A DNA stretch of 64,000 nucleotides, from the NCBI GenBank assembly GCA_028867595.1, contig JAGWGB010000002.1, positions 1 through 64,000 of the forward strand. Reading direction: 5' to 3'. Source of the DNA: Nitrososphaerota archaeon. GTDB taxonomy: Archaea; Thermoproteota; Nitrososphaeria; Nitrososphaerales; Nitrosopumilaceae. How positions within the stretch are numbered: position 1 is the stretch's first letter; each line of letters begins with the position of its first letter. Positions 2,019 through 48,619 of the stretch are shown here, in pieces. Made by a program: the position numbers and the translations under genes. A model generated the notes under the pieces. The model was not told the origin of the DNA and did not search any database. It saw only the letters and a list, made by a program, of their open reading frames with translations.

Positions 2019-3074
2019 GTGATTCTTTCTAACAGAACCAATATCTATAGGTTATATCATTTCCTGAATAGATTGAAATTACTAGTATCAGGTCTCATGT
2101 TTTTTGCTATCTTGAGTAGTTTTTTGTCTCAAGCTTATGCCATTTCAGTGCCACTAGAATTGTATACTGATTCTCAAGTATATTCTGAGAACCAACCGCT
2201 TCTTGTATATGGTAAAACTGCTTCTGCAAATGAGACTGTAATTCTTAGATTGTTTGCACCTGATGGAACCATTAAACAATTTAACCAAATTGAATCTGAT
2301 AGCCATGGGGATTTTAATCAAATATTGATAAGATGGCCTAGTGCAACAACAAACTATCCATATGGGACATATTCAGTGGAGGCAATTGTTCCAAAAGAGC
2401 AGGGCTTTTCACAAAAAGTCGACGTAGCATTTACGTCATCTTCCTCATTAGTACATACTCAAATAAAAAGACAAGTACTAGTCTCAGTTTACGCTCCGCA
2501 AACTGCAGCTGTCAATCAAACATTCCGGGTATTCGTTCAAGTAACAAGTGACGGTTTGTTGGTAGCTGGTGATCCATCAAAACTCTTGGCTACCTCACAC
2601 GTACATCTACCAAATGGGGATGTAATGGATCTTACAAATTCTTTTACCACTCTCCATCAGGGATTGTATTATGTAGATTTTACACCCACACAAGAGGGCA
2701 CTTATGTCTTTCACATAACAGCGCTTAGCCAAGGTACTGAATCCAATGGATCTGTTGCCACTCTAGTACTAAAACAAAGCATAGAAGGAATATCGCAGCA
2801 GATTATAAAATTAAATTCTGTGATAAATACAACATCCAATGAACTTGATAAGATGAAGACAGAAGTTCAAACCTTTGGATATGTTTTAAACGCAAGCCAA
2901 AATTCTATGGCTGAGGCAAATTCAAACATAAACAAAAGTGTCACATCAATGTCAGATTCAGTTAAAAATATGGAATCAGCCTCAGGCCAGATTAACTCGC
3001 TGCTTTTACCATTCGTTGCTTTGATTGCTGTGATGATTGCTTTACAACTAGCCATTCTTGCTAGGCGAAGATAA
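2019..3074 (+). CDS. Secreted beta-sandwich (MG2-like) protein with coiled coil and C-terminal membrane anchor
   Basis: A 351-residue protein with a GTG start, an N-terminal hydrophobic segment (about residues 18-42, ending QAYA, a plausible signal-peptidase site), and an extracellular domain whose opening (ELYTDSQVYSENQPLLVYG) has the pattern of MG2/macroglobulin-like strands. A second beta-rich region follows. Then comes a helical heptad-like region (about 255-320, many Asn/Ser/Met) and a C-terminal transmembrane helix ending in ARRR. This topology places the domain outside the membrane. The subtilisin gene starts 5 nt after its stop, so the pair is almost certainly one transcript and may form one surface complex (inference). 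The same sandwich pattern recurs in the PEFG proteins at 56498-59686. Confidence 0.7.
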   Translation: MILSNRTNIYRLYHFLNRLKLLVSGLMFFAILSSFLSQAYAISVPLELYTDSQVYSENQPLLVYGKTASANETVILRLFAPDGTIKQFNQIESDSHGDFNQILIRWPSATTNYPYGTYSVEAIVPKEQGFSQKVDVAFTSSSSLVHTQIKRQVLVSVYAPQTAAVNQTFRVFVQVTSDGLLVAGDPSKLLATSHVHLPNGDVMDLTNSFTTLHQGLYYVDFTPTQEGTYVFHITALSQGTESNGSVATLVLKQSIEGISQQIIKLNSVINTTSNELDKMKTEVQTFGYVLNASQNSMAEANSNINKSVTSMSDSVKNMESASGQINSLLLPFVALIAVMIALQLAILARRR

Positions 3075-3079
3075 CCATC

Positions 3080-6000
3080 ATGGTAAACACCAAATTTGCC
3101 ATGTCAATGGTTTCATTTTTTCTTATATCCCTTCTTCTGGTATCCATAATTCCAAAACCAGTTAGTGCATACTACGACGTGGACGTTCCAAGACAAACAC
3201 AAATTTCTGCACCAGAACAAACATCTGGTCTGATAACCTTTCAGCCTACTTTATCTGAAAATTCAGCAAAGAGATATCTAGTTTTTGGCTCAGGTACCGT
3301 CTCAGATATATCTGCAAAATCTGATAATATAATTTACGGATTAAACTCTGATCATGGGTCTTTTGCAGTAGGCACATTTGATCAAAATCAGATCTCAAGC
3401 CTGAAACTTGATGGCTATAATGTAATTGAGGATCTACCGCTAGAATTTGATTCTGTACAAACAAATTCTCACGCGCCTACTGATGTTTCTAGGATTGATG
3501 ATATACTTGGTTCAAGCAAAGTAATTCAACAGTATAACTATACTGGTGATGGTATCAAGGTAGGTATAGTTGATACCGGAACAGATTTTTCAAATCCTGA
3601 CGTACAAAACTCTCTTGCAAGGGACAAAAATAACATTCCAATCATGATTGATGCAGATGGGCAAGGGCTTGTACTGACAAATGCGACATTTATCGCACAA
3701 ATCAGTAGCTACGGAGTAATTCAAAACTACACCCATCCAATTCCCAAAAATGTAACCTCATCTGTATATGTAAACTCAAAGGGAGTTTTTCTTAATCTAA
3801 ATAATAATGGACAGGGAACCACTATCTCTGTATACAACTCACAATATCCAAAAGGCGGTACTCCTATCATAAATGGGACAGTGTCAGACGATTACAAAAT
3901 AGGAAAAGATACCAGACATTTCATCAGGTCAAAAAGCGGAATGTATCACTTTGGTATGATATATGAAAGTGTATCTCAAGGCCAACTTTCAATATTACAG
4001 CTAGTTCCGGTTCTTGTAGTTGATACAAAGGTGGCAGGAGTTTATGATACCATAATACCTGATATGTCTGATTCGTACAAAGATTTTATAAGAATTACCA
4101 GTCCCATACCTCCCAAATACGATTTTGATTTTACAACTCAGACTCCTATCACATTAGGTAATGGGAAAGAACTTCTTGTTTATGATAAAAATAAAGATGG
4201 AAATCCTGTATATAGTGCAGGCACAGTAGGTGCACGCGTTCTTGACTTGTATGGCGTAATCACACACTCGGCTAAAATTGATAAAAAAATTGGAGCGATA
4301 AACGGTACATTACTTCCACCATTTGACCCACATGGAAACTTTTTTGGCGTAATGTATGACTACCAAGGACATGGAACTGCTACTGCTGCTTCAATAACAT
4401 CACAAGGAAAACAGCAGTATGATGTCTATGGAAACTCTACAAAATACGTAATAAATGGCATTGCTCCTGGCTCCAAGATAGTTCCAATAAAGGCATTGTG
4501 GCTTGGGGATGCAATATATGGATGGCTATGGGCCGCAGGATTTGATCAGGACGAAAACTATTGGAAATTTTCAGGAACTCCTAGAGTTGACATATTATCT
4601 AACAGCTGGGGAATCTCCACTTTTCCTGCACTTGAATCAGTACCAGGTCTTGATGTGGGTTCTCTTTTACTTAGCGCACTCAATGTACCAGGCTCGCTAG
4701 ATCCAAAATATCCTGGAATACTTACAGTAAGCAGCTCGGGCAACGCTGGACCGGGTTATGGTACAATTGGCAGTCCTGACGCTGCACCTTTTGGTCTTAC
4801 TGTGGGGGCTGCAACTGATAATGTATTTGTGGGCTATGGTCCGTTTAAAGGACAACCAAGATTTGGTAATAGCACCACATATTTTGGTGACGTGTCTGGC
4901 TTTTCAAGCAAAGGTCCATCATTGATAGGAGATCCAAAACCAGACATAATGGCAGTGGGTGAATATGGCTTTACCCCGACTTCTGTTACAAAATACAACA
5001 AAAATTCAACAGGTCCGTTTTCTCTATTTGGGGGTACAAGCCTTGCTGCTCCCTTAACAGCTGGCGCGGCTTCAATTGTAATGCAGGCTTTACATGAAAA
5101 AGGAATTCCGTACAATCCATTTACAATAAAAAACATACTAATGTCCACTGCAAATGATTTAGGAAATGATCCTTTTGCTCAAGGCTCTGGACTAGTTAAT
5201 GTAACAAGCGCAATTGACTATGTACTGGGAAATAAAAATTCCTTTGCAGTTTACAACAATGCTACATATTCTAACGTAAAGAAAGTACTGGATCCTTCAA
5301 TTAGCTCAATGAATTCCTCATCATTTGGATTAAAGACATTTCATCTAGGAAATGATTCCCTTCCAGAGACTCCTTGGTTTGCTGGAAGGCTATATCCAGG
5401 AGACCGAACTACTGCAGCCTTTACCATTGAAAATCCGACTGATAATAACATTGCAGTAAAAATAGAACCGCAAAAACTTGATTTGATAAAAGTTTCTCAA
5501 TATAATGGGACCACGCAACCTCGCCTACACGACTCTCTAATTAAAAAACAAGGGGTTTACAGACCTGATTATGTACCGCTTGCCCAAATAACAAATCACA
5601 CCAATCTTCTGTCATTTTTCCAAAAAACAAACTCTATACCAACTGACGCATCTCTAATGGTGCTTGATCTCACGTTTCCATTTTCAGAATTTATGAATTC
5701 TTCTGCAAAAACATATGCCGACGATATGAAAATCTCCTCGCTTTATCTGTATGATTGGAATGACAAACATGATGCTACGCCAACATATGTGGACCTCTCG
5801 CTTGTAAATCGAGGAGGCTCTTGGGGCACAGCTCAAGAGGTAAGAGTTTCTGATCCAAGCTCAAAATTTGAACATGTACCTTTGGTAGGCGTATATCCAG
5901 TTCCAACTAGATATTCATATTGGTCTGGAGATACCAAGAAAAATTCTACCTCGATTAATTACACCATTACTACAAGCTATTTCGAAAAAACCAAATGGAA

Positions 6001-7330
6001 TGAAATGTGGCTTGATTCAAATGATATACAAATAAAACCACATAGCAAAACTACAATATTCGCGACACTTGTTATACCGTCTGACCAAAAACCTGGAAAC
6101 TATCAGGGATTCATTTCATTTACGGATAATTCTCATAAAGTAAACGTACCAGTATCGTATGTTGTATTAAAAAAATTACAACCAAAGGATTTACCAACCG
6201 TCATACAAGGATCAGCAGGAAATAGCCTTTTTGGAAACGGATATGTGAGTGGAGGCTTTGACATGTCTAATAGATATAATGCAGGTGACTGGAGAGAATA
6301 TTCATTTGATATCAACGATAAAACGATAAACGCAGCAACAACTATTATTTCTTGGAAAGATACCAATACCAATCTGTCTGTCTTTGTAATTGATCCTCAA
6401 GGAAGGATAATTCAAACAAATGTTCCTGCTGGAATACTAGGACAATTCCAAGGATGGCCAAGTGGGGACTGGTTAGGACCAAGCACACCATTTGGTGAAG
6501 GTGGAGGATTTTATCCTGTAAAAAATAAGGATGATACATCGACAGAAGTCTATGCTCCAATTAATCAAACTGGAGTATACTCTGTACTAATCCATACTAC
6601 ACTATTTGGAGGTAAATCAGTCACAGAACCGATAACCGTAACAACAAAATTCTCAACAATTTTGCCAAATGAGACACCCCCGCAAATAAACCTGAAAATA
6701 CCGCAATTCATCAATAACACCTATAATGTAATCCCTACCATAATTGGCACTGACATACAAGACCAAAAATATTCCATAGACTCTTCAGGCTTGAAAGAAT
6801 TCAATGAAACCGAATTTCAAAATTCTGTTGGAAATCTCTCAGAAGGACTTCATGATGTGAAAATTATTGCATCAGACACAGTTGGCCATACAGTTTCAAA
6901 GGATTTTAAATTTACAGTGGACAACACTCCTCCATCAATCGTTTTTGAATCTCCGATAAATGGTTCTACTGTTTCAGGAATAGCCAAAGTCAATTTGAAT
7001 GTAAATGAAAATAATCTATTGGAAAAAAACTGGCTTACAGTAAAACTTCCAGGCAAGACAGTTTTTGATAACGCAACATTCCAATATGATACTAGAACAT
7101 TACAAAATGGTCAGTATTACATTGAGGCCATAGCTGAAGATAAGGCAGGAAACACTGCAGACAAAAAAATCATGATTAACGTAGATAACTCCTTTTCAGG
7201 TTATGGCTCCATTCAAAATATGGGCGATCAGAATTTTATAACTTTAATTGAAATATTGGTTGGAATTGCAATCGCGTCTTTGATATCTGTTATTACTTTT
7301 AAAAAATTTAGATTTTTAGGAAGAACTTAG
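3080..7330 (+). CDS. Giant membrane-anchored subtilisin-like serine protease (S8 family)
   Basis: A 1416-residue protein with a signal peptide (about residues 1-30, ending SAYY). The catalytic triad is visible as Asp165 (VGIVDTGTDF), His431 (GHGTATAAS) and Ser654 (GTSLAAPLTAG), with oxyanion Asn555 (SSSGNAGPG). The Asp-His spacing of 266 residues is far beyond the roughly 30-60 of classical subtilisins, so a domain of about 200 residues is inserted there. Residues about 700-1370 are beta-rich and include Ig-like repeats (TVDNTPPSIVFESP), and a C-terminal transmembrane helix precedes a short basic tail. This implies an extracellular, membrane-tethered protease, perhaps for surface-protein turnover or peptide scavenging. 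It is co-transcribed with the preceding gene. Confidence 0.9.
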   Translation: MVNTKFAMSMVSFFLISLLLVSIIPKPVSAYYDVDVPRQTQISAPEQTSGLITFQPTLSENSAKRYLVFGSGTVSDISAKSDNIIYGLNSDHGSFAVGTFDQNQISSLKLDGYNVIEDLPLEFDSVQTNSHAPTDVSRIDDILGSSKVIQQYNYTGDGIKVGIVDTGTDFSNPDVQNSLARDKNNIPIMIDADGQGLVLTNATFIAQISSYGVIQNYTHPIPKNVTSSVYVNSKGVFLNLNNNGQGTTISVYNSQYPKGGTPIINGTVSDDYKIGKDTRHFIRSKSGMYHFGMIYESVSQGQLSILQLVPVLVVDTKVAGVYDTIIPDMSDSYKDFIRITSPIPPKYDFDFTTQTPITLGNGKELLVYDKNKDGNPVYSAGTVGARVLDLYGVITHSAKIDKKIGAINGTLLPPFDPHGNFFGVMYDYQGHGTATAASITSQGKQQYDVYGNSTKYVINGIAPGSKIVPIKALWLGDAIYGWLWAAGFDQDENYWKFSGTPRVDILSNSWGISTFPALESVPGLDVGSLLLSALNVPGSLDPKYPGILTVSSSGNAGPGYGTIGSPDAAPFGLTVGAATDNVFVGYGPFKGQPRFGNSTTYFGDVSGFSSKGPSLIGDPKPDIMAVGEYGFTPTSVTKYNKNSTGPFSLFGGTSLAAPLTAGAASIVMQALHEKGIPYNPFTIKNILMSTANDLGNDPFAQGSGLVNVTSAIDYVLGNKNSFAVYNNATYSNVKKVLDPSISSMNSSSFGLKTFHLGNDSLPETPWFAGRLYPGDRTTAAFTIENPTDNNIAVKIEPQKLDLIKVSQYNGTTQPRLHDSLIKKQGVYRPDYVPLAQITNHTNLLSFFQKTNSIPTDASLMVLDLTFPFSEFMNSSAKTYADDMKISSLYLYDWNDKHDATPTYVDLSLVNRGGSWGTAQEVRVSDPSSKFEHVPLVGVYPVPTRYSYWSGDTKKNSTSINYTITTSYFEKTKWNEMWLDSNDIQIKPHSKTTIFATLVIPSDQKPGNYQGFISFTDNSHKVNVPVSYVVLKKLQPKDLPTVIQGSAGNSLFGNGYVSGGFDMSNRYNAGDWREYSFDINDKTINAATTIISWKDTNTNLSVFVIDPQGRIIQTNVPAGILGQFQGWPSGDWLGPSTPFGEGGGFYPVKNKDDTSTEVYAPINQTGVYSVLIHTTLFGGKSVTEPITVTTKFSTILPNETPPQINLKIPQFINNTYNVIPTIIGTDIQDQKYSIDSSGLKEFNETEFQNSVGNLSEGLHDVKIIASDTVGHTVSKDFKFTVDNTPPSIVFESPINGSTVSGIAKVNLNVNENNLLEKNWLTVKLPGKTVFDNATFQYDTRTLQNGQYYIEAIAEDKAGNTADKKIMINVDNSFSGYGSIQNMGDQNFITLIEILVGIAIASLISVITFKKFRFLGRT

Positions 7331-7369: not shown

Positions 7370-7975
7370 ATGTCTGAGCAAGATACTAGGGGTACAGTAA
7401 CTAGGCGAGACTTTCTTAAACTTCTAGGCGCTGCAGGCGTTGCAACTACTTTTGCACCTTTTGTTCCGTGGGGAAAATTCATGCCAAATCCATCAAACAT
7501 AGTACCTGCTAAAGTTCAGGTAATATTGCCAGATGGAACAGTGGCAAACGTTAAGACTTTTCCATTAAATAGTTCTGAAGTCATAACATATCCATCTACT
7601 GGAGATCCGGTTCTTGATCAGGAGGCATTTAAAAAATGGCAGTTTATCAGATTACCTTCAGAATTAGGTGGCGATGCACAGGATGTCAGTGCTTTTCGTG
7701 TATACAGTATGGTATGTTTACATTTATGGTGTTTATGGAAATACTGGCCTCAGGATGGCAGAAAAAGAGGAGAATGCCCCTGTCATGGCAGTATGTACAA
7801 TCCATTAACTGGCAAGGCATTTGCAGGTCCTGCATCCCTTCAAGCTCCGCCGTCAAACGTATTGGCAACACTTTATCTTGAAGCTGATGACAAGGGTGAT
7901 CTGTGGATAAAGCCAGCTGTGTGGAACGTTAACGAAAATGGAGTAGTGGGATATGGTCGTTTCCTTAAAGCGTAG
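7370..7975 (+). CDS. Rieske iron-sulfur subunit of a cytochrome bc-type complex
   Basis: A 201-residue protein with a twin-arginine signal anchor (TRRDFLKLLGAAG, residues 11-23). Its 2Fe-2S site matches the respiratory Rieske pattern: Cys116-x-His118 and Cys136-x-x-His139 as ligands, with Cys121 and Cys138 placed for the stabilising disulfide (CPCHGS motif). The usual CTHLGC loop reads CLHLWC, with Trp in place of Gly. It would oxidise quinol at the outer face with the adjacent cytochrome b, whose gene overlaps this stop by 23 nt. In ammonia oxidisers this complex passes electrons on to blue-copper carriers (family knowledge). Confidence 0.93.
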   Translation: MSEQDTRGTVTRRDFLKLLGAAGVATTFAPFVPWGKFMPNPSNIVPAKVQVILPDGTVANVKTFPLNSSEVITYPSTGDPVLDQEAFKKWQFIRLPSELGGDAQDVSAFRVYSMVCLHLWCLWKYWPQDGRKRGECPCHGSMYNPLTGKAFAGPASLQAPPSNVLATLYLEADDKGDLWIKPAVWNVNENGVVGYGRFLKA

Positions 7976-9515
7976 AAACGGATTTGTAGATTTCTGTTAC
8001 TGGATATGGGATGGATTAGAGAGAACTGTATTCATTGGTACCAAGTTCTCATTTCCTGCAAGATTCGTAAGTCCATTTGGATTTTTAGGAATGTTGACTT
8101 TTGTTGTATTTATCATACTGGGAGTTTCTGGAGCTCTGCTAATGTTCTATTACGAACCAATATTGGATAGAGCGTGGGACAGTGTTGCTAAAATCAATAA
8201 TACAGTTCCATACGGGTTTATGATTAGGAATATTCATTACCATGCGTCAAATGCAATGGTCCTTCTTGCAGTGCTTCACATGTATTATCAATACTTTAGT
8301 GGACGATACAAAATAAGAAATGAAATCATATGGGTAACGGGAGTTGTACTTGGTACAGTAACTATTCTGGAAGCCTTTACTGGTTATGATATAATTTTCA
8401 GTGAACGTGCAGAACTTGCAATTAGTATTGCAGCTTCGCTAACTAACTCCATGCCTGTAGTGGGACCTACTATACGTGACGCTATGTTTGGTTCTGGCTT
8501 TGCAGACTTTATACTGCGATTCTATACACTGCATGTCTTCATTCTTCCAATAGTGATGCTGGGACTAATGGCAGTGCACTTGCCTAGGTTCTTAGTGTTT
8601 GATGTTCCTATGGTGATGGCAATCTCCGGAGCCATCTTTATCACAGGTGGTGTATTCCCCGTAGATTTGGGTTCAAAGTTTCAACCTACTGTACCGCCAG
8701 GCATTACTGTACCCGAATGGTATCTTACAGGAATCTATGCATTCCTAAGAACGCAATATGATAAATTTGTAACCGGGGTCTTGTGGCCTGGAATATTCAT
8801 AGTAGCGATAGCTATGACACCCTTTATTGATAGATACAAAAAGTTCTCTTGGAAAGATAGGCCAATAGTCACAGCCTTTGGAATAACTGGCATAGCCCAA
8901 GTCATGGTTACCACATACTGGGGATTCTACATTACGCCAGATACCACAAAACCGCTTGTTGCCAGGCTTGTGATAGATCCAGTCTTCTTCTATCTGATAA
9001 TGTTGCTCCTTGTACCGATAGGTTTTGGATTCTCATACATGATGATATTGCTTGCCAAGGAGGCAGAGAGAAAGGCAAAACTAGCTGCATCAAAAAGACC
9101 CCATAAATCAGCACAGATAAACTTCTCAGGCAAATGGATAAACTGGCTAATTGTTGCCTTGTTGATATTCCAAGTATACATCAATATTGCAGCCTACAAT
9201 GCGGCACTAGCTGGCATGAAGAACTTTTCGCTGTTCCTAGTGGGACTAGGTCTAATGGTATTTGCTGGCATGTTCCATCTCTATAGGCATGGGCTAAATG
9301 AAGCAAAGAAGGCACCACAACCGCCCCCACAACCAGAATCTGAAACTCCAAAACCATTGGAAGGCCCAGAATCATCAGGAAAAGTTCCACCAAAAGAGGA
9401 ACCTGGAAAACTAACGCCACCTAAACCGCAAGAAACTGTACCAGAAATTAAAGCGGCTGGACTGGAAGATTTGAAAGATCCGGTCATTGGCAAGTATGAC
9501 CTTAAAAATCCTTAA
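7953..9515 (+). CDS. Cytochrome b subunit of complex III (b6/subunit IV type, C-terminally extended)
   Basis: A 520-residue polytopic membrane protein. The b-heme His pairs are seen in HYHASNAMVLLAVLHMYYQY and TLHVFILPIVMLGLMAVHL, and the quinol-oxidation motif PEWY occurs in the second half (TVPEWYLTGIYAF), so the b6-like and subunit IV-like parts are fused. After the usual helices there are about two extra transmembrane segments (IVALLIFQVYINIAAY, FLVGLGLMVFAGMF) and then a Pro/Glu-rich tail of about 85 residues. The start is inside the Rieske gene, giving translational coupling. Length and tail exceed a canonical cytochrome b (about 380-430). Confidence 0.93.
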   Translation: MVVSLKRRNGFVDFCYWIWDGLERTVFIGTKFSFPARFVSPFGFLGMLTFVVFIILGVSGALLMFYYEPILDRAWDSVAKINNTVPYGFMIRNIHYHASNAMVLLAVLHMYYQYFSGRYKIRNEIIWVTGVVLGTVTILEAFTGYDIIFSERAELAISIAASLTNSMPVVGPTIRDAMFGSGFADFILRFYTLHVFILPIVMLGLMAVHLPRFLVFDVPMVMAISGAIFITGGVFPVDLGSKFQPTVPPGITVPEWYLTGIYAFLRTQYDKFVTGVLWPGIFIVAIAMTPFIDRYKKFSWKDRPIVTAFGITGIAQVMVTTYWGFYITPDTTKPLVARLVIDPVFFYLIMLLLVPIGFGFSYMMILLAKEAERKAKLAASKRPHKSAQINFSGKWINWLIVALLIFQVYINIAAYNAALAGMKNFSLFLVGLGLMVFAGMFHLYRHGLNEAKKAPQPPPQPESETPKPLEGPESSGKVPPKEEPGKLTPPKPQETVPEIKAAGLEDLKDPVIGKYDLKNP

Positions 9516-9538
9516 GGCGTTCGTATCTATTCGTATAA

Positions 9539-9547
9539 CTTTATAAG
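9539..9547 (+). promoter_or_regulatory. TATA element of the blue-copper gene
   Basis: A CTTTATAAG core is centred about 29 nt before the TTG start at 9572. The blue-copper gene therefore seems able to be transcribed separately from the complex III genes, as a leaderless message. Confidence 0.55.
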
Positions 9548-9571
9548 ACTAGTAAAAAAATCAACGACTAG

Positions 9572-10045
9572 TTGAGTGTTCCTACCTCAAGTCATGCATA
9601 TGGAATAGCGCTAATCGCAGTTATAGTGGGAGCAGCTGTTGGAATATCATACTATCAACAATACTATATTCCAGAACTTAATGCTAAGCCAATCATTCCA
9701 GAAAAAGTTCTTGAACCTGGTAGCAGTACGAATATAATCATAGTTCCAGGAGCTGAAAATCCTCAACAACAACAAAACTTTGTACCAAAAAAGATTGAAG
9801 CTCAACTTGGTGTAAGCAACCTAGTAATATGGAAAAATACCAGCGATTCAGCAGCACATACGGTAACTCCTGACAAGCCATTTAAGGATCTTTACAGTGG
9901 TGATTTTGGTTCCAACGGTGTAATATTGCCTGGTAAAACATACCAGTTCCTATTTACTCAAGAAGCTCAAATCACATACCATTGTGATCCTCACCCATGG
10001 ATGAAAGGAGAAATTGATGTAGTTCACGGAGCTCTTACTTCTTAG
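9572..10045 (+). CDS. Membrane-anchored blue-copper (plastocyanin-like) protein
   Basis: A 157-residue protein with an N-terminal transmembrane/signal segment (about residues 9-27) and one cupredoxin domain. The type 1 copper ligands are visible: His96 (AAHTV), Cys138, His141 and Met144 in the YHCDPHPWM loop. It would carry electrons outside the membrane, and its position directly after Rieske and cytochrome b suggests it accepts electrons from complex III or donates to the terminal oxidase, as copper proteins replace cytochrome c in Nitrososphaerota. The start is TTG, supported by the TATA spacing and by the absence of a suitable ATG before the signal anchor. Confidence 0.88.
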   Translation: MSVPTSSHAYGIALIAVIVGAAVGISYYQQYYIPELNAKPIIPEKVLEPGSSTNIIIVPGAENPQQQQNFVPKKIEAQLGVSNLVIWKNTSDSAAHTVTPDKPFKDLYSGDFGSNGVILPGKTYQFLFTQEAQITYHCDPHPWMKGEIDVVHGALTS

Positions 10046-45577: not shown

Positions 45578-48500
45578 TTGTACAAAATATATGCTATTCT
45601 GTTATTTGTGCTTCTTATTTTTCCACAAGTGCTAACACCTGATGCTAAAGGATATTCCGATCATCCTAACCTATTTGTGTCAGCTGAAAACAGCATTTTC
45701 CAAAATCACTTTTCTGGAGCAATGGTGATCGAAGTGATAGTTAAGGGAAACAATGTACAATTAGATCAAGCCCAAGGTGAACCAAATGTTAATGTAAACG
45801 GACGACAACTCCGTATGGCACAGGCGTCTGATGGTTATTGGTACGCATTTTTTGCTGATACAAACGCCGCTAAACAAGCAGATCAGATAGCACTGGGTGG
45901 TCAAGCTGGGCAAAATATGGACTTTGGAGTTTTCTGTTCATCTTCCACTCCGTCCTCTGTACTAGGAGCAGATTTTTCACAAACTGATGGTATTGCGATT
46001 CCAGACTCTAATGGACTTTCAGGAACCACTCAAGGACTAGCGTCGTTTGGTATGTGCAGTGGTACGCCACAACCTCCAACTGTAAATCAGAACAATGTTG
46101 TCAAAAATCCTCCTTCATTGAATACAAATTCCAATTTGCCCCCAGGACAAATTGGAGTCAGTCCAAACATATGGCCTGTAATTCAGCTTTTCTCATTTAG
46201 TAATGATGTAAACATAGAATACAATGGTGCGGCAGGAACACAAAGTGTTGATCTTACATACTTTGATATCCCAAATATCTCTATAAAACTCGACAGAGGT
46301 GCATATTCTGCAGGCTCTGAGGTCTTTGCAACAATAAACGATATTCAATTAGATGAAGATCCGACTGCAGCAGACTCGTGGACATTTAATGTCGATAATC
46401 CTGAAGCAACTTTCTACCAAGCATTTCCAGAATCTGGTGGCGGTAGTACTACCGGACTTGTAAATCTCTCACCATTTCTTAGCAGCTTGGGTTTTAGAGA
46501 TAATGGCAAAGTTGAGATGAATCTAGGCAATGTTATAAATCTGAAGACAAACTCTCTTCAAACCAGTTCATCTATAACTGCAAACGGAATAACTTATGAC
46601 AAATTAGTAACATTTGTAGAAACTGGTCCAAACACTGGAATCTTTGAAAGTGATTATGGCAGTATTTCTACAATCGGCATATCGCAAAACGCTCCTAGGT
46701 CACAATCTGGTACAATTGAATATAATCTTCAATCCACATCTATTGTTTCTGGTGTTACAACTGCAGGTCTTGTTCTTGGCACTGGGCAGAGTCAATTCGG
46801 ACCAGGACAAAGAGAAACTATTTCACTAACTGATCCAAACCAAGTTCTAAACTCTGGAACTATTGAAACATTAAACATTTTTCGAAGTTCAGCCATAGTC
46901 CCCACACTGAAGATTGGAAACCCAGTTACACTGGTTGGTGCATCTGACGTGAATTTTTATTCAACTCAAAACAGCCTTTCAAATCCGATCTCTGTTTCTT
47001 CCAGTGTTCCTGACTCTAATTCTGCCAGGCTAGTGATAGATACAAGGCCAACTCCGTCTGCCAATTTTTATGAAATGACTGTAAATCTTGGAATCACAGC
47101 TGGTACGCTTCAAGGCTTATTGATTGATCCTAGTCAACCCAATTCCGGCGGAACAAACTGGATCAATTATGATCTGAGATCATTTCAACAGCAGTTGGGT
47201 ATCAACTCGTTTTCAAGCACTGGCATGACTCTTCATTTTGGCAGTGCGTCTAGTAGCTCATCTGTTGAGATATTGTCTCCGGGAACCATTTCGGCTGGCA
47301 ATGGCCTTGTACAGATCAGTAATTCTGTAGTATCTTCAATTAAATCCCAATCTTCCTCATCTCCAGTGTATCTGGAGATCAACTTTGGTAGTTCAAATGG
47401 TGTTATTTCGCATGAAACAGATACACAACCAATAGTTTTTGATATGTTTTCCTTTGGAATGAAAAACAGTCAAACAGTAAACAATGCTGTGTATCGCGCT
47501 GAACTACAAGAAACATCTCCAGGATCAGGTATTTTCACAGGTACTATTGAATACGTAGTGGCAAACCAATTAAATCAATTTGATCCAAATTTCATAAAAA
47601 CTCTGGCTACATTTGGTAGCAACATAATATTTTTTGTAAATGGGCAATTGGTAAATGAAAACGGAATTAATTTTTCCATTACAGGTTCTTCGCCTGGAGG
47701 TCAACCAACTACCGTTACCTCAAAAAATAGTCTACCCACACATACAGGAGTAGTAACACTTGATTCGGGAAATTACAGAATTGGTTCACCTGTAACTATA
47801 ACAGTTTATGATCCTGATCTTGCCTCGTCTGCTGACACTATACAGTCTTTTTCGACAGTAAATGATCCCAATTCACCTGCAGTGGATACAGTAGGAGACG
47901 CTAGTGGAAATATACTACTTGAGGTGTGGATAAAGGGATTCAGATTTCATCAATGTACCGTAAATGGAGTGTTTCATGGCGGACTTGCTGCTACTGGATT
48001 TACCCTTACTGAAACCGCGCCTGGTTCAGGTGTATTTCAGGGAATATTCAAAATGCCATCTTGGATATGCAGCGAGGATGGTACTTCATTGATATCCCCT
48101 ATAGGTGGGATAGTACAGGCTTGGTATCACGACTATGCTGACGCATCAGGAAGATCTGTTGTAATAGGATCTACAATTGCCTCTCAATCATCTCAATCTA
48201 CTACAACGTCTCCGCCAGCCACTCCGCCTACTCAATCATACACATCTGGTACTACTCAAGTTTATGCTTCGAAGATTACACATGTTACGCAAATGAGTAA
48301 TGAAAATGGAATGCCTTTATTGCAAAACCCCACAGTTGGTCAAACAATATCATTTAACGATATAATTTCAAACGGTGATTACCAAAACGACCAAAAAATT
48401 TCTTATATTGTTCAAATAAAAGATAGTCAAGGTAAAGTTGTCTATTTGAAATGGATAAATGACTCCATTAGTCCATCAAACGAGGCAACAGAAAAACTAT

Positions 48501-48619
48501 CGTGGATTCCCACGAGTCCTGGAAGTTATTCTGCTGAAATCTATGTTTGGAACGGCATGGACTCTCTGGTACCATTGACTATAAAAAACGGATATCAATT
48601 TCAGGTATTGCCTCAGTAA
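45578..48619 (+). CDS. Large secreted S-layer-like surface protein
   Basis: A 1013-residue exported protein with TTG start and signal peptide (IYAILLFVLLIFPQVL). It is beta-rich, Ser/Thr/Asn/Gln-rich and low in Lys. Ig-like modules are marked by strand pairs such as LDRGAYSAGSEVFATI and LDSGNYRIGSPVTITVYDPD, each followed by an E-T-x-P-x-x-G-x-F motif: near residue 347 (ETGPNTGIFE), 644 (ETSPGSGIFTG) and 811 (ETAPGSGVFQG). This module type occurs in archaeal S-layer proteins. No C-terminal anchor or PEFG signal, so it is held by other surface proteins or released. Between 870 and 900 a Ser/Thr/Pro linker. Confidence 0.8.
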   Translation: MYKIYAILLFVLLIFPQVLTPDAKGYSDHPNLFVSAENSIFQNHFSGAMVIEVIVKGNNVQLDQAQGEPNVNVNGRQLRMAQASDGYWYAFFADTNAAKQADQIALGGQAGQNMDFGVFCSSSTPSSVLGADFSQTDGIAIPDSNGLSGTTQGLASFGMCSGTPQPPTVNQNNVVKNPPSLNTNSNLPPGQIGVSPNIWPVIQLFSFSNDVNIEYNGAAGTQSVDLTYFDIPNISIKLDRGAYSAGSEVFATINDIQLDEDPTAADSWTFNVDNPEATFYQAFPESGGGSTTGLVNLSPFLSSLGFRDNGKVEMNLGNVINLKTNSLQTSSSITANGITYDKLVTFVETGPNTGIFESDYGSISTIGISQNAPRSQSGTIEYNLQSTSIVSGVTTAGLVLGTGQSQFGPGQRETISLTDPNQVLNSGTIETLNIFRSSAIVPTLKIGNPVTLVGASDVNFYSTQNSLSNPISVSSSVPDSNSARLVIDTRPTPSANFYEMTVNLGITAGTLQGLLIDPSQPNSGGTNWINYDLRSFQQQLGINSFSSTGMTLHFGSASSSSSVEILSPGTISAGNGLVQISNSVVSSIKSQSSSSPVYLEINFGSSNGVISHETDTQPIVFDMFSFGMKNSQTVNNAVYRAELQETSPGSGIFTGTIEYVVANQLNQFDPNFIKTLATFGSNIIFFVNGQLVNENGINFSITGSSPGGQPTTVTSKNSLPTHTGVVTLDSGNYRIGSPVTITVYDPDLASSADTIQSFSTVNDPNSPAVDTVGDASGNILLEVWIKGFRFHQCTVNGVFHGGLAATGFTLTETAPGSGVFQGIFKMPSWICSEDGTSLISPIGGIVQAWYHDYADASGRSVVIGSTIASQSSQSTTTSPPATPPTQSYTSGTTQVYASKITHVTQMSNENGMPLLQNPTVGQTISFNDIISNGDYQNDQKISYIVQIKDSQGKVVYLKWINDSISPSNEATEKLSWIPTSPGSYSAEIYVWNGMDSLVPLTIKNGYQFQVLPQ

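Follow-up and report, generated by a model that had tools for sequence, protein, structure and literature searches.

A conserved gene pair for a SlaB-like stalk protein and a subtilisin-type protease in Nitrosopumilaceae, a putative S-layer-associated proteolytic unit

A stretch of 64,000 nucleotides from contig JAGWGB010000002.1 of a Nitrososphaerota archaeon of the Nitrosotalea group, in the family Nitrosopumilaceae (hereafter the window), encodes a putative surface-layer (S-layer) anchor protein related to SlaB, followed by a large S8 (subtilisin-type) protease. The two open reading frames (ORFs) lie on the plus strand at 2019–3074 (351 residues, GTG start) and 3080–7330 (1,416 residues, ATG start). 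The stop codon of the SlaB-like ORF and the start of the downstream protease ORF are separated by 5 nucleotides. An original prediction made from the DNA letters gave these coordinates and the 5-nucleotide gap, together with a catalytic triad of Asp165, His431, and Ser654 and an Asp-His spacing of about 266, and all of these are found in the sequence as it described them. Both the protease and its partner have hydrophobic segments at the N- and C-termini in hydropathy plots. The real start of the partner is probably TTG 2073 rather than GTG 2019, because its relatives begin there (residue 19), as does the match to the family profile (2073–3071). The features of the pair are as follows.

2019–3074, plus strand: SlaB-like anchor protein, 351 residues (ORF; match to SlaB family NCBIfam NF040788; start probably TTG 2073).
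2151–2435, plus strand: first beta-sandwich domain, MG2-like, residues 45–139 (predicted model; fold alignment to complement C3, 9qk2_F).
2472–2771, plus strand: second beta domain, residues 152–251 (strands in the predicted model; weak Filamin/Ig-like Pfam match).
2772–2999, plus strand: predicted coiled-coil segment, residues 252–327 (helix in the model; hydropathy period).
3000–3059, plus strand: C-terminal membrane helix of the partner, residues 328–347 (hydropathy maximum 2.71).
3080–7330, plus strand: S8 (subtilisin-type) surface protease, 1,416 residues (ORF; Pfam PF00082, E 1.3e-29).
3572–3574, plus strand: catalytic Asp165 (IVDTGTD; D in 69/69 aligned relatives).
3605–4354, plus strand: Asp-His insertion domain, about residues 176–425 (spacing, conservation, purifying selection; no significant Pfam or PDB match).
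4184–4201, plus strand: calcium-site-like motif DKNKDG within the insertion (DxDGDG-type letters in relatives; putative calcium binding).
4370–4372, plus strand: catalytic His431 (QGHGTA; H in 69/69 aligned relatives).
5039–5041, plus strand: catalytic Ser654 (GGTSLAA; S in 69/69 aligned relatives).
6812–7186, plus strand: Ig-like domains, residues 1245–1369 (Pfam Big_13, E 1.3e-7, over the cut-off; Big_3_3, E 5.2e-6, just below it).
7229–7309, plus strand: C-terminal membrane helix of the protease, residues 1384–1410 (hydropathy maximum 2.56).

Judged by its sequence, the partner is a distant SlaB relative that falls outside the NF040788 equivalog. The NF040788 profile matches residues 49–149 (E 8.2e-11), and it also matches six of the seven partner proteins tested from other genera and families, all far under the 700-bit cut-off; the seventh (locus L082) is SlaB-like by architecture only. 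The window protein has the SlaB order of parts: an export signal segment leads into two predicted beta domains, and a coiled coil then connects these to a membrane helix at the C-terminus. The structural model is of moderate confidence (predicted local distance difference test score, pLDDT, 61.7; predicted template modelling score, pTM, 0.34) and shows, after the two beta domains, one helix of 99 residues that continues into the membrane segment. Across the partner family this helix has a heptad-like hydropathy period of 3.50–3.55. The second domain has a Filamin/Ig-like Pfam match at residues 163–235 that is below the cut-off (E 0.005). A Foldseek search with the model ranked SlaB (8qox_B) third over the whole length, with E 6e-5 and a poor overall superposition, and also listed complement C3/C5 and adhesin domains. 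With VIA-align, the partner and 8qox_B aligned with Z 8.9 over 268 residues and a root-mean-square deviation (rmsd) of 35 Å, a value that probably reflects a different arrangement of the modelled domains. The partner has the four kinds of segment found in SlaB of the Sulfolobales (8qox, NF040788), beta-sandwich domains included, but only two beta domains in 351 residues rather than three in 475 (PMC10903991), and its gene is followed by a protease gene. According to PMC10903991, Sulfolobus SlaB is a trimer with beta domains on a coiled coil. A minor SlaB homologue that ends in a membrane domain is reported for most Nitrososphaerota (PMC11153153); it may or may not be the product of the partner gene described here.

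The original prediction had also described the partner as membrane anchored with an MG2-like domain, and both features were recovered. In addition to the C-terminal helix, residues 45–139 of the model (pLDDT 61.7) align with C3/C5 at Z 10–11 (for C3 9qk2_F, Z 11.0, rmsd 2.2 Å, 91 residues aligned), in a region that we take to be MG2.

The protease belongs to the S8 family, with Asp165, His431, and Ser654 in subtilisin order within DTG, GHGT, and GTS motifs and with Pfam PF00082 covering residues 427–704 (E 1.3e-29). Asp165 and His431 are 266 positions apart (265 residues between them), and the large domain proposed to lie between Asp and His within the catalytic fold is present. All three catalytic residues are kept in every one of 69 aligned subfamily members, an alignment that left out locus L134, where the gene is broken by stops. 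The original prediction had allowed that the insertion might be a known domain common in its subfamily; it is common, with an Asp-His spacing of 188–302 positions in 69/69 members, and no known domain was matched. From these alignments, the long insertion is a trait of the whole archaeal subfamily. Its identity to the insertion in the window ranges from 21% to 78% over 27 other members, and it is under purifying selection, with a ratio of nonsynonymous to synonymous substitution rates (dN/dS) of about 0.05–0.10 vs 0.04–0.08 for the catalytic part; most pairs are close to saturation at synonymous sites, L007/L008 being the cleanest.

A profile built from the insertion alone yielded nothing significant against PDB and Pfam. 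The best Pfam matches below significance were FG-GAP (6/28 members, best E 3.6e-4) and GEVED (2/28), which hint at calcium-binding loops, and a DxDxDG-like stretch also suggests calcium binding. Structure prediction of the protease, from an alignment of the window and eight close loci, gave a pLDDT of 26, too low for use. The catalytic part aligns to tripeptidyl-peptidase 2 (TPP2; 3lxu) with E 9e-31, and counted from this alignment the Asp-His spacing of 3lxu is 228 positions. A very long spacing is therefore, by sequence comparison, already a known kind in this enzyme group; the insertion-only profile retrieved no TPP2 chain from PDB. The window enzyme has the S8 catalytic domain and very long Asp-His spacing of TPP2 but is predicted to be exported and membrane anchored. 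Its archaeal relatives and long insertion point to the pyrolysin/STABLE group of S8 and a TPP2-like kind. A C-terminal membrane helix (hydropathy at least 1.9) is present in 13 of 16 proteases from other Nitrosopumilaceae genera vs 5 of 32 from distant loci.

The gene pair is conserved across the family, in support of the two-gene surface protease unit that was originally proposed. Of 37 genomes in the genus of the window (its own included), 28 have a strong partner match, and a protease match adjoins it in all 28; the other nine assemblies are 54–88% complete and do not enter the adjacency count. Across 24 loci from this genus that contain both genes, the intergenic gap is +5 nucleotides in 22 and −17 in two. 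A draw of 398 genomes from the phylum yielded the protease at E 1e-40 in 111, distributed as 58/63 in the family, 6/11 in the rest of the order, and 47/324 beyond the order. Of the 58 Nitrosopumilaceae genomes that encode the protease, 57 have a SlaB-like gene immediately before it in the same orientation (the exception is genome G362). Among 30 genomes of other families, eight have both genes, five the protease only (one of these, G325, is cut by a contig end), two SlaB only, and 15 neither (Fisher P value 0.007, with shared ancestry ignored); this co-occurrence is weak support for a link.

The pair also occurs beside a gene for the coat protein itself. In other Nitrosopumilaceae genera, the order is a long S-layer protein, the SlaB-like protein, the protease, and then usually Rieske and cytochrome b genes. 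The S-layer gene is in place before the other two in 15 of 17 such loci (two of the 15 S-layer ORFs are partial, and L126 and L135 are without an S-layer gene there). Complete S-layer proteins in these loci have about 1,600–1,980 residues. The S-layer label rests on length, position, a weak NCBIfam match (E 1e-9, under the cut-off) to an anammox S-layer glycoprotein, and what we take to be the start of the Nitrosopumilus S-layer protein. In other families, the S-layer/SlaB-like/protease order is found in L074, L075, and L076, the last with one extra gene, while G057 and G042 have the S-layer and SlaB-like genes together and the protease elsewhere. In the genome of the window, the S-layer-like genes lie apart from the SlaB-like gene; one of them, at 45578–48619 in the window, encodes a protein of 1,013 residues. 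Directly 3' of the protease, at 7370–10045, are genes that we take to encode a Rieske protein, a cytochrome b, and a cupredoxin-like protein, and most of the other Nitrososphaeria loci that were inspected share the order protease, Rieske, cytochrome b.

Similar neighbours were found in distant Thermoproteota. We examined 32 distant protease loci, from 31 of the 47 genomes beyond the order that have the protease. In nine, a gene on the same strand within 1.5 kb encodes a protein of 865–1,621 residues that has an export segment, a C-terminal membrane helix, and a long run free of proline; among the more distant ORFs of the examined loci, 0 of 237 show this combination. The neighbour criterion was relaxed once, for loci and background alike, after a first version missed most SlaB-like proteins, which have a proline preceding the membrane helix. 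The SlaB-like proteins of L074 and L075 fail the relaxed version despite a profile match, as does that of L125, where the ORF overlaps the protease beyond the limit set. One further stalk-like neighbour pair occurs within the order (L082). Loci with stalk-like neighbours are spread over separate branches of a FastTree protease tree, read for branch topology only, without support values. The neighbours in L153, L154, and L164 have about 300 residues with a coiled-coil period, an architecture that resembles the kind described for tetrabrachion; two neighbour proteins searched against PDB gave weak coiled-coil matches only, with the solved tetrabrachion coiled coil absent from the matches. The L167 protease is without a stalk-like neighbour and is 31% identical to the L148 protease of the same genus, evidence against a gene pair common to that whole genus.

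The position of this pair next to a coat-protein gene in numerous relatives makes it probable that the protease acts within the S-layer coat, and we consider it somewhat probable that the pair is an S-layer-associated proteolytic unit. The first gene would supply an exported SlaB-type stalk with two beta domains on a coiled coil and its C-terminal helix in the membrane; by analogy with SlaB, this protein may form a trimer that contacts the S-layer. The second would supply a subtilase of pyrolysin/TPP2-like type that is likewise exported and is fixed in the same membrane through a C-terminal helix of its own. Presumed co-translation would place the two side by side under the S-layer lattice, where contact between them is predicted. 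Possible substrates are S-layer or other envelope proteins, cut during maturation and turnover, or foreign proteins, cut to peptides for uptake. The insertion would most likely be a domain stabilised by calcium, placed above or next to the active site, where it restricts entry.

The original prediction did not recognise this arrangement, and a described counterpart exists: STABLE, a subtilisin-family protease bound to tetrabrachion, the coiled-coil S-layer stalk of Staphylothermus marinus (PMC5744192). STABLE is proposed to process the tetrabrachion precursor or to supply peptides (PMC5744192) and has been assigned to the pyrolysin group (PMC9549277). We take the window pair to be its likely counterpart in ammonia-oxidising archaea, a likeness drawn from published descriptions. 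In both, a subtilase is paired with a coiled-coil surface-layer stalk protein, for the window pair through gene linkage alone. The window stalk differs in being a short SlaB-like anchor and not the lattice protein itself, the window protease has its own membrane helix, and the relatives of the window are ammonia oxidisers and not hyperthermophiles. No published report of SlaB-protease gene linkage was found in a search that was made without supplements and most subscription journals.

Several observations weigh against a coat-associated unit. With a membrane helix of its own, the protease can remain at the cell without SlaB. The SlaB score of the partner, 41.4 bits, is far under the NF040788 equivalog cut-off of 700 bits. 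The protease lies apart from the SlaB-like gene in G057, G437, G042, and G362, and two Nitrosopumilaceae genomes (G260 and G414) have a strong SlaB-like gene but no protease. Among the 30 other-family genomes, two have SlaB without the protease and five have the protease without a strong SlaB match. In Nitrosotalea, the S-layer gene is outside the SlaB-like/protease operon, and 23 of the 32 distant protease loci are without a stalk-like neighbour.

Some of the same facts would fit a protease that is a nutritional, membrane-anchored surface endopeptidase whose SlaB-like neighbour is merely co-transcribed, both being envelope genes in an S-layer/complex III region, with no cooperation between the proteins. 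The window enzyme resembles the thaumarchaeal S08A proteases, which are mostly membrane-anchored S8 enzymes of ammonia-oxidising archaea and have been associated with the utilisation of peptides (PMC6790972). Its own membrane helix, the separation of the two genes in some families, and the respiratory Rieske and cytochrome b genes directly after it all agree with such a role. SlaB or S-layer gene linkage is not mentioned for these proteases in the accessible text of PMC6790972. A nutritional enzyme beside an unrelated envelope gene does not readily account for adjacency kept in 57/58 Nitrosopumilaceae genomes or for similar stalk-like neighbours in separate branches of the protease tree, and we regard this explanation as possible but rather unlikely.

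A narrower form of the coat-associated reading would have the protease dedicated to maturing the S-layer or SlaB protein. The order of S-layer, SlaB-like, and protease genes in 15/17 loci favours it, as does the proposal that STABLE cuts the tetrabrachion precursor (PMC5744192), but G260 and G414 keep the SlaB-like gene without a protease, so SlaB is not strictly dependent on the protease. We think so dedicated a role unlikely.

We regard as very improbable a macroglobulin-like role of the partner, the trapping or inhibition of the protease, along the lines that the original prediction had raised; the coupled genes and the MG2-like first domain (Z 10–11) speak for it. Macroglobulins are built as a ring of MG domains with a bait region, and their internal thioester uses the cysteine of a CGEQ-type motif. 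The partner shares with alpha-2-macroglobulin and complement C3 the fold of its first domain, in a model of moderate confidence, but contains no cysteine and therefore no thioester, and at 351 residues with two beta domains it is too small for a ring and bait. Its SlaB relatives, its whole-chain alignment to 8qox_B, and its coiled-coil and membrane-helix architecture also argue for a stalk. Of the earlier proposal that the partner controls or presents the protease, presentation may hold in the sense of a stalk or scaffold, and control by trapping falls with the missing thioester.

Within the reading as an S-layer-associated proteolytic unit, we raise tentatively, and with more doubt than belief, that the SlaB-like protein of ammonia-oxidising archaea serves mainly to dock the protease, as its dedicated partner, and not to anchor the lattice in general. 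A dock would explain why the SlaB homologue of N. maritimus is reported to be much scarcer than the S-layer protein (PMC11153153). The tethered protease would then be a standing component of the coat, remodelling the lattice or processing proteins trapped beneath it. A proposed role of the S-layer in ammonia-oxidising archaea is to concentrate ammonium at the cell. If the protease is a regular part of this coat, S-layer turnover, processing, and peptide use become testable from the conserved S-layer/SlaB-like/protease order. STABLE, a lone S-layer-bound protease in the review PMC5744192, would likewise gain a likely genomic counterpart over much of Thermoproteota.

Other arrangements were observed around these genes. 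One genome, G373, has two complete S-layer/SlaB-like/protease units (L136 and L137). Family f3 has an extra exported protein of about 250 residues just upstream of the protease (L076:8016–8762 and L079:13393–14145), which in L076 sits between the SlaB-like gene and the protease. In family f8, four genomes (G043, G377, G402, and G335) have neither the protease nor the SlaB-like gene, and two loci (L077 and L138) have an apparent ribosomal protein L11 gene beside the protease in place of the SlaB-like gene. Among the distant loci, a conserved pair of small genes (about 255–271 and 186–197 residues) recurs downstream in L148, L153, L154, L158, and L164.

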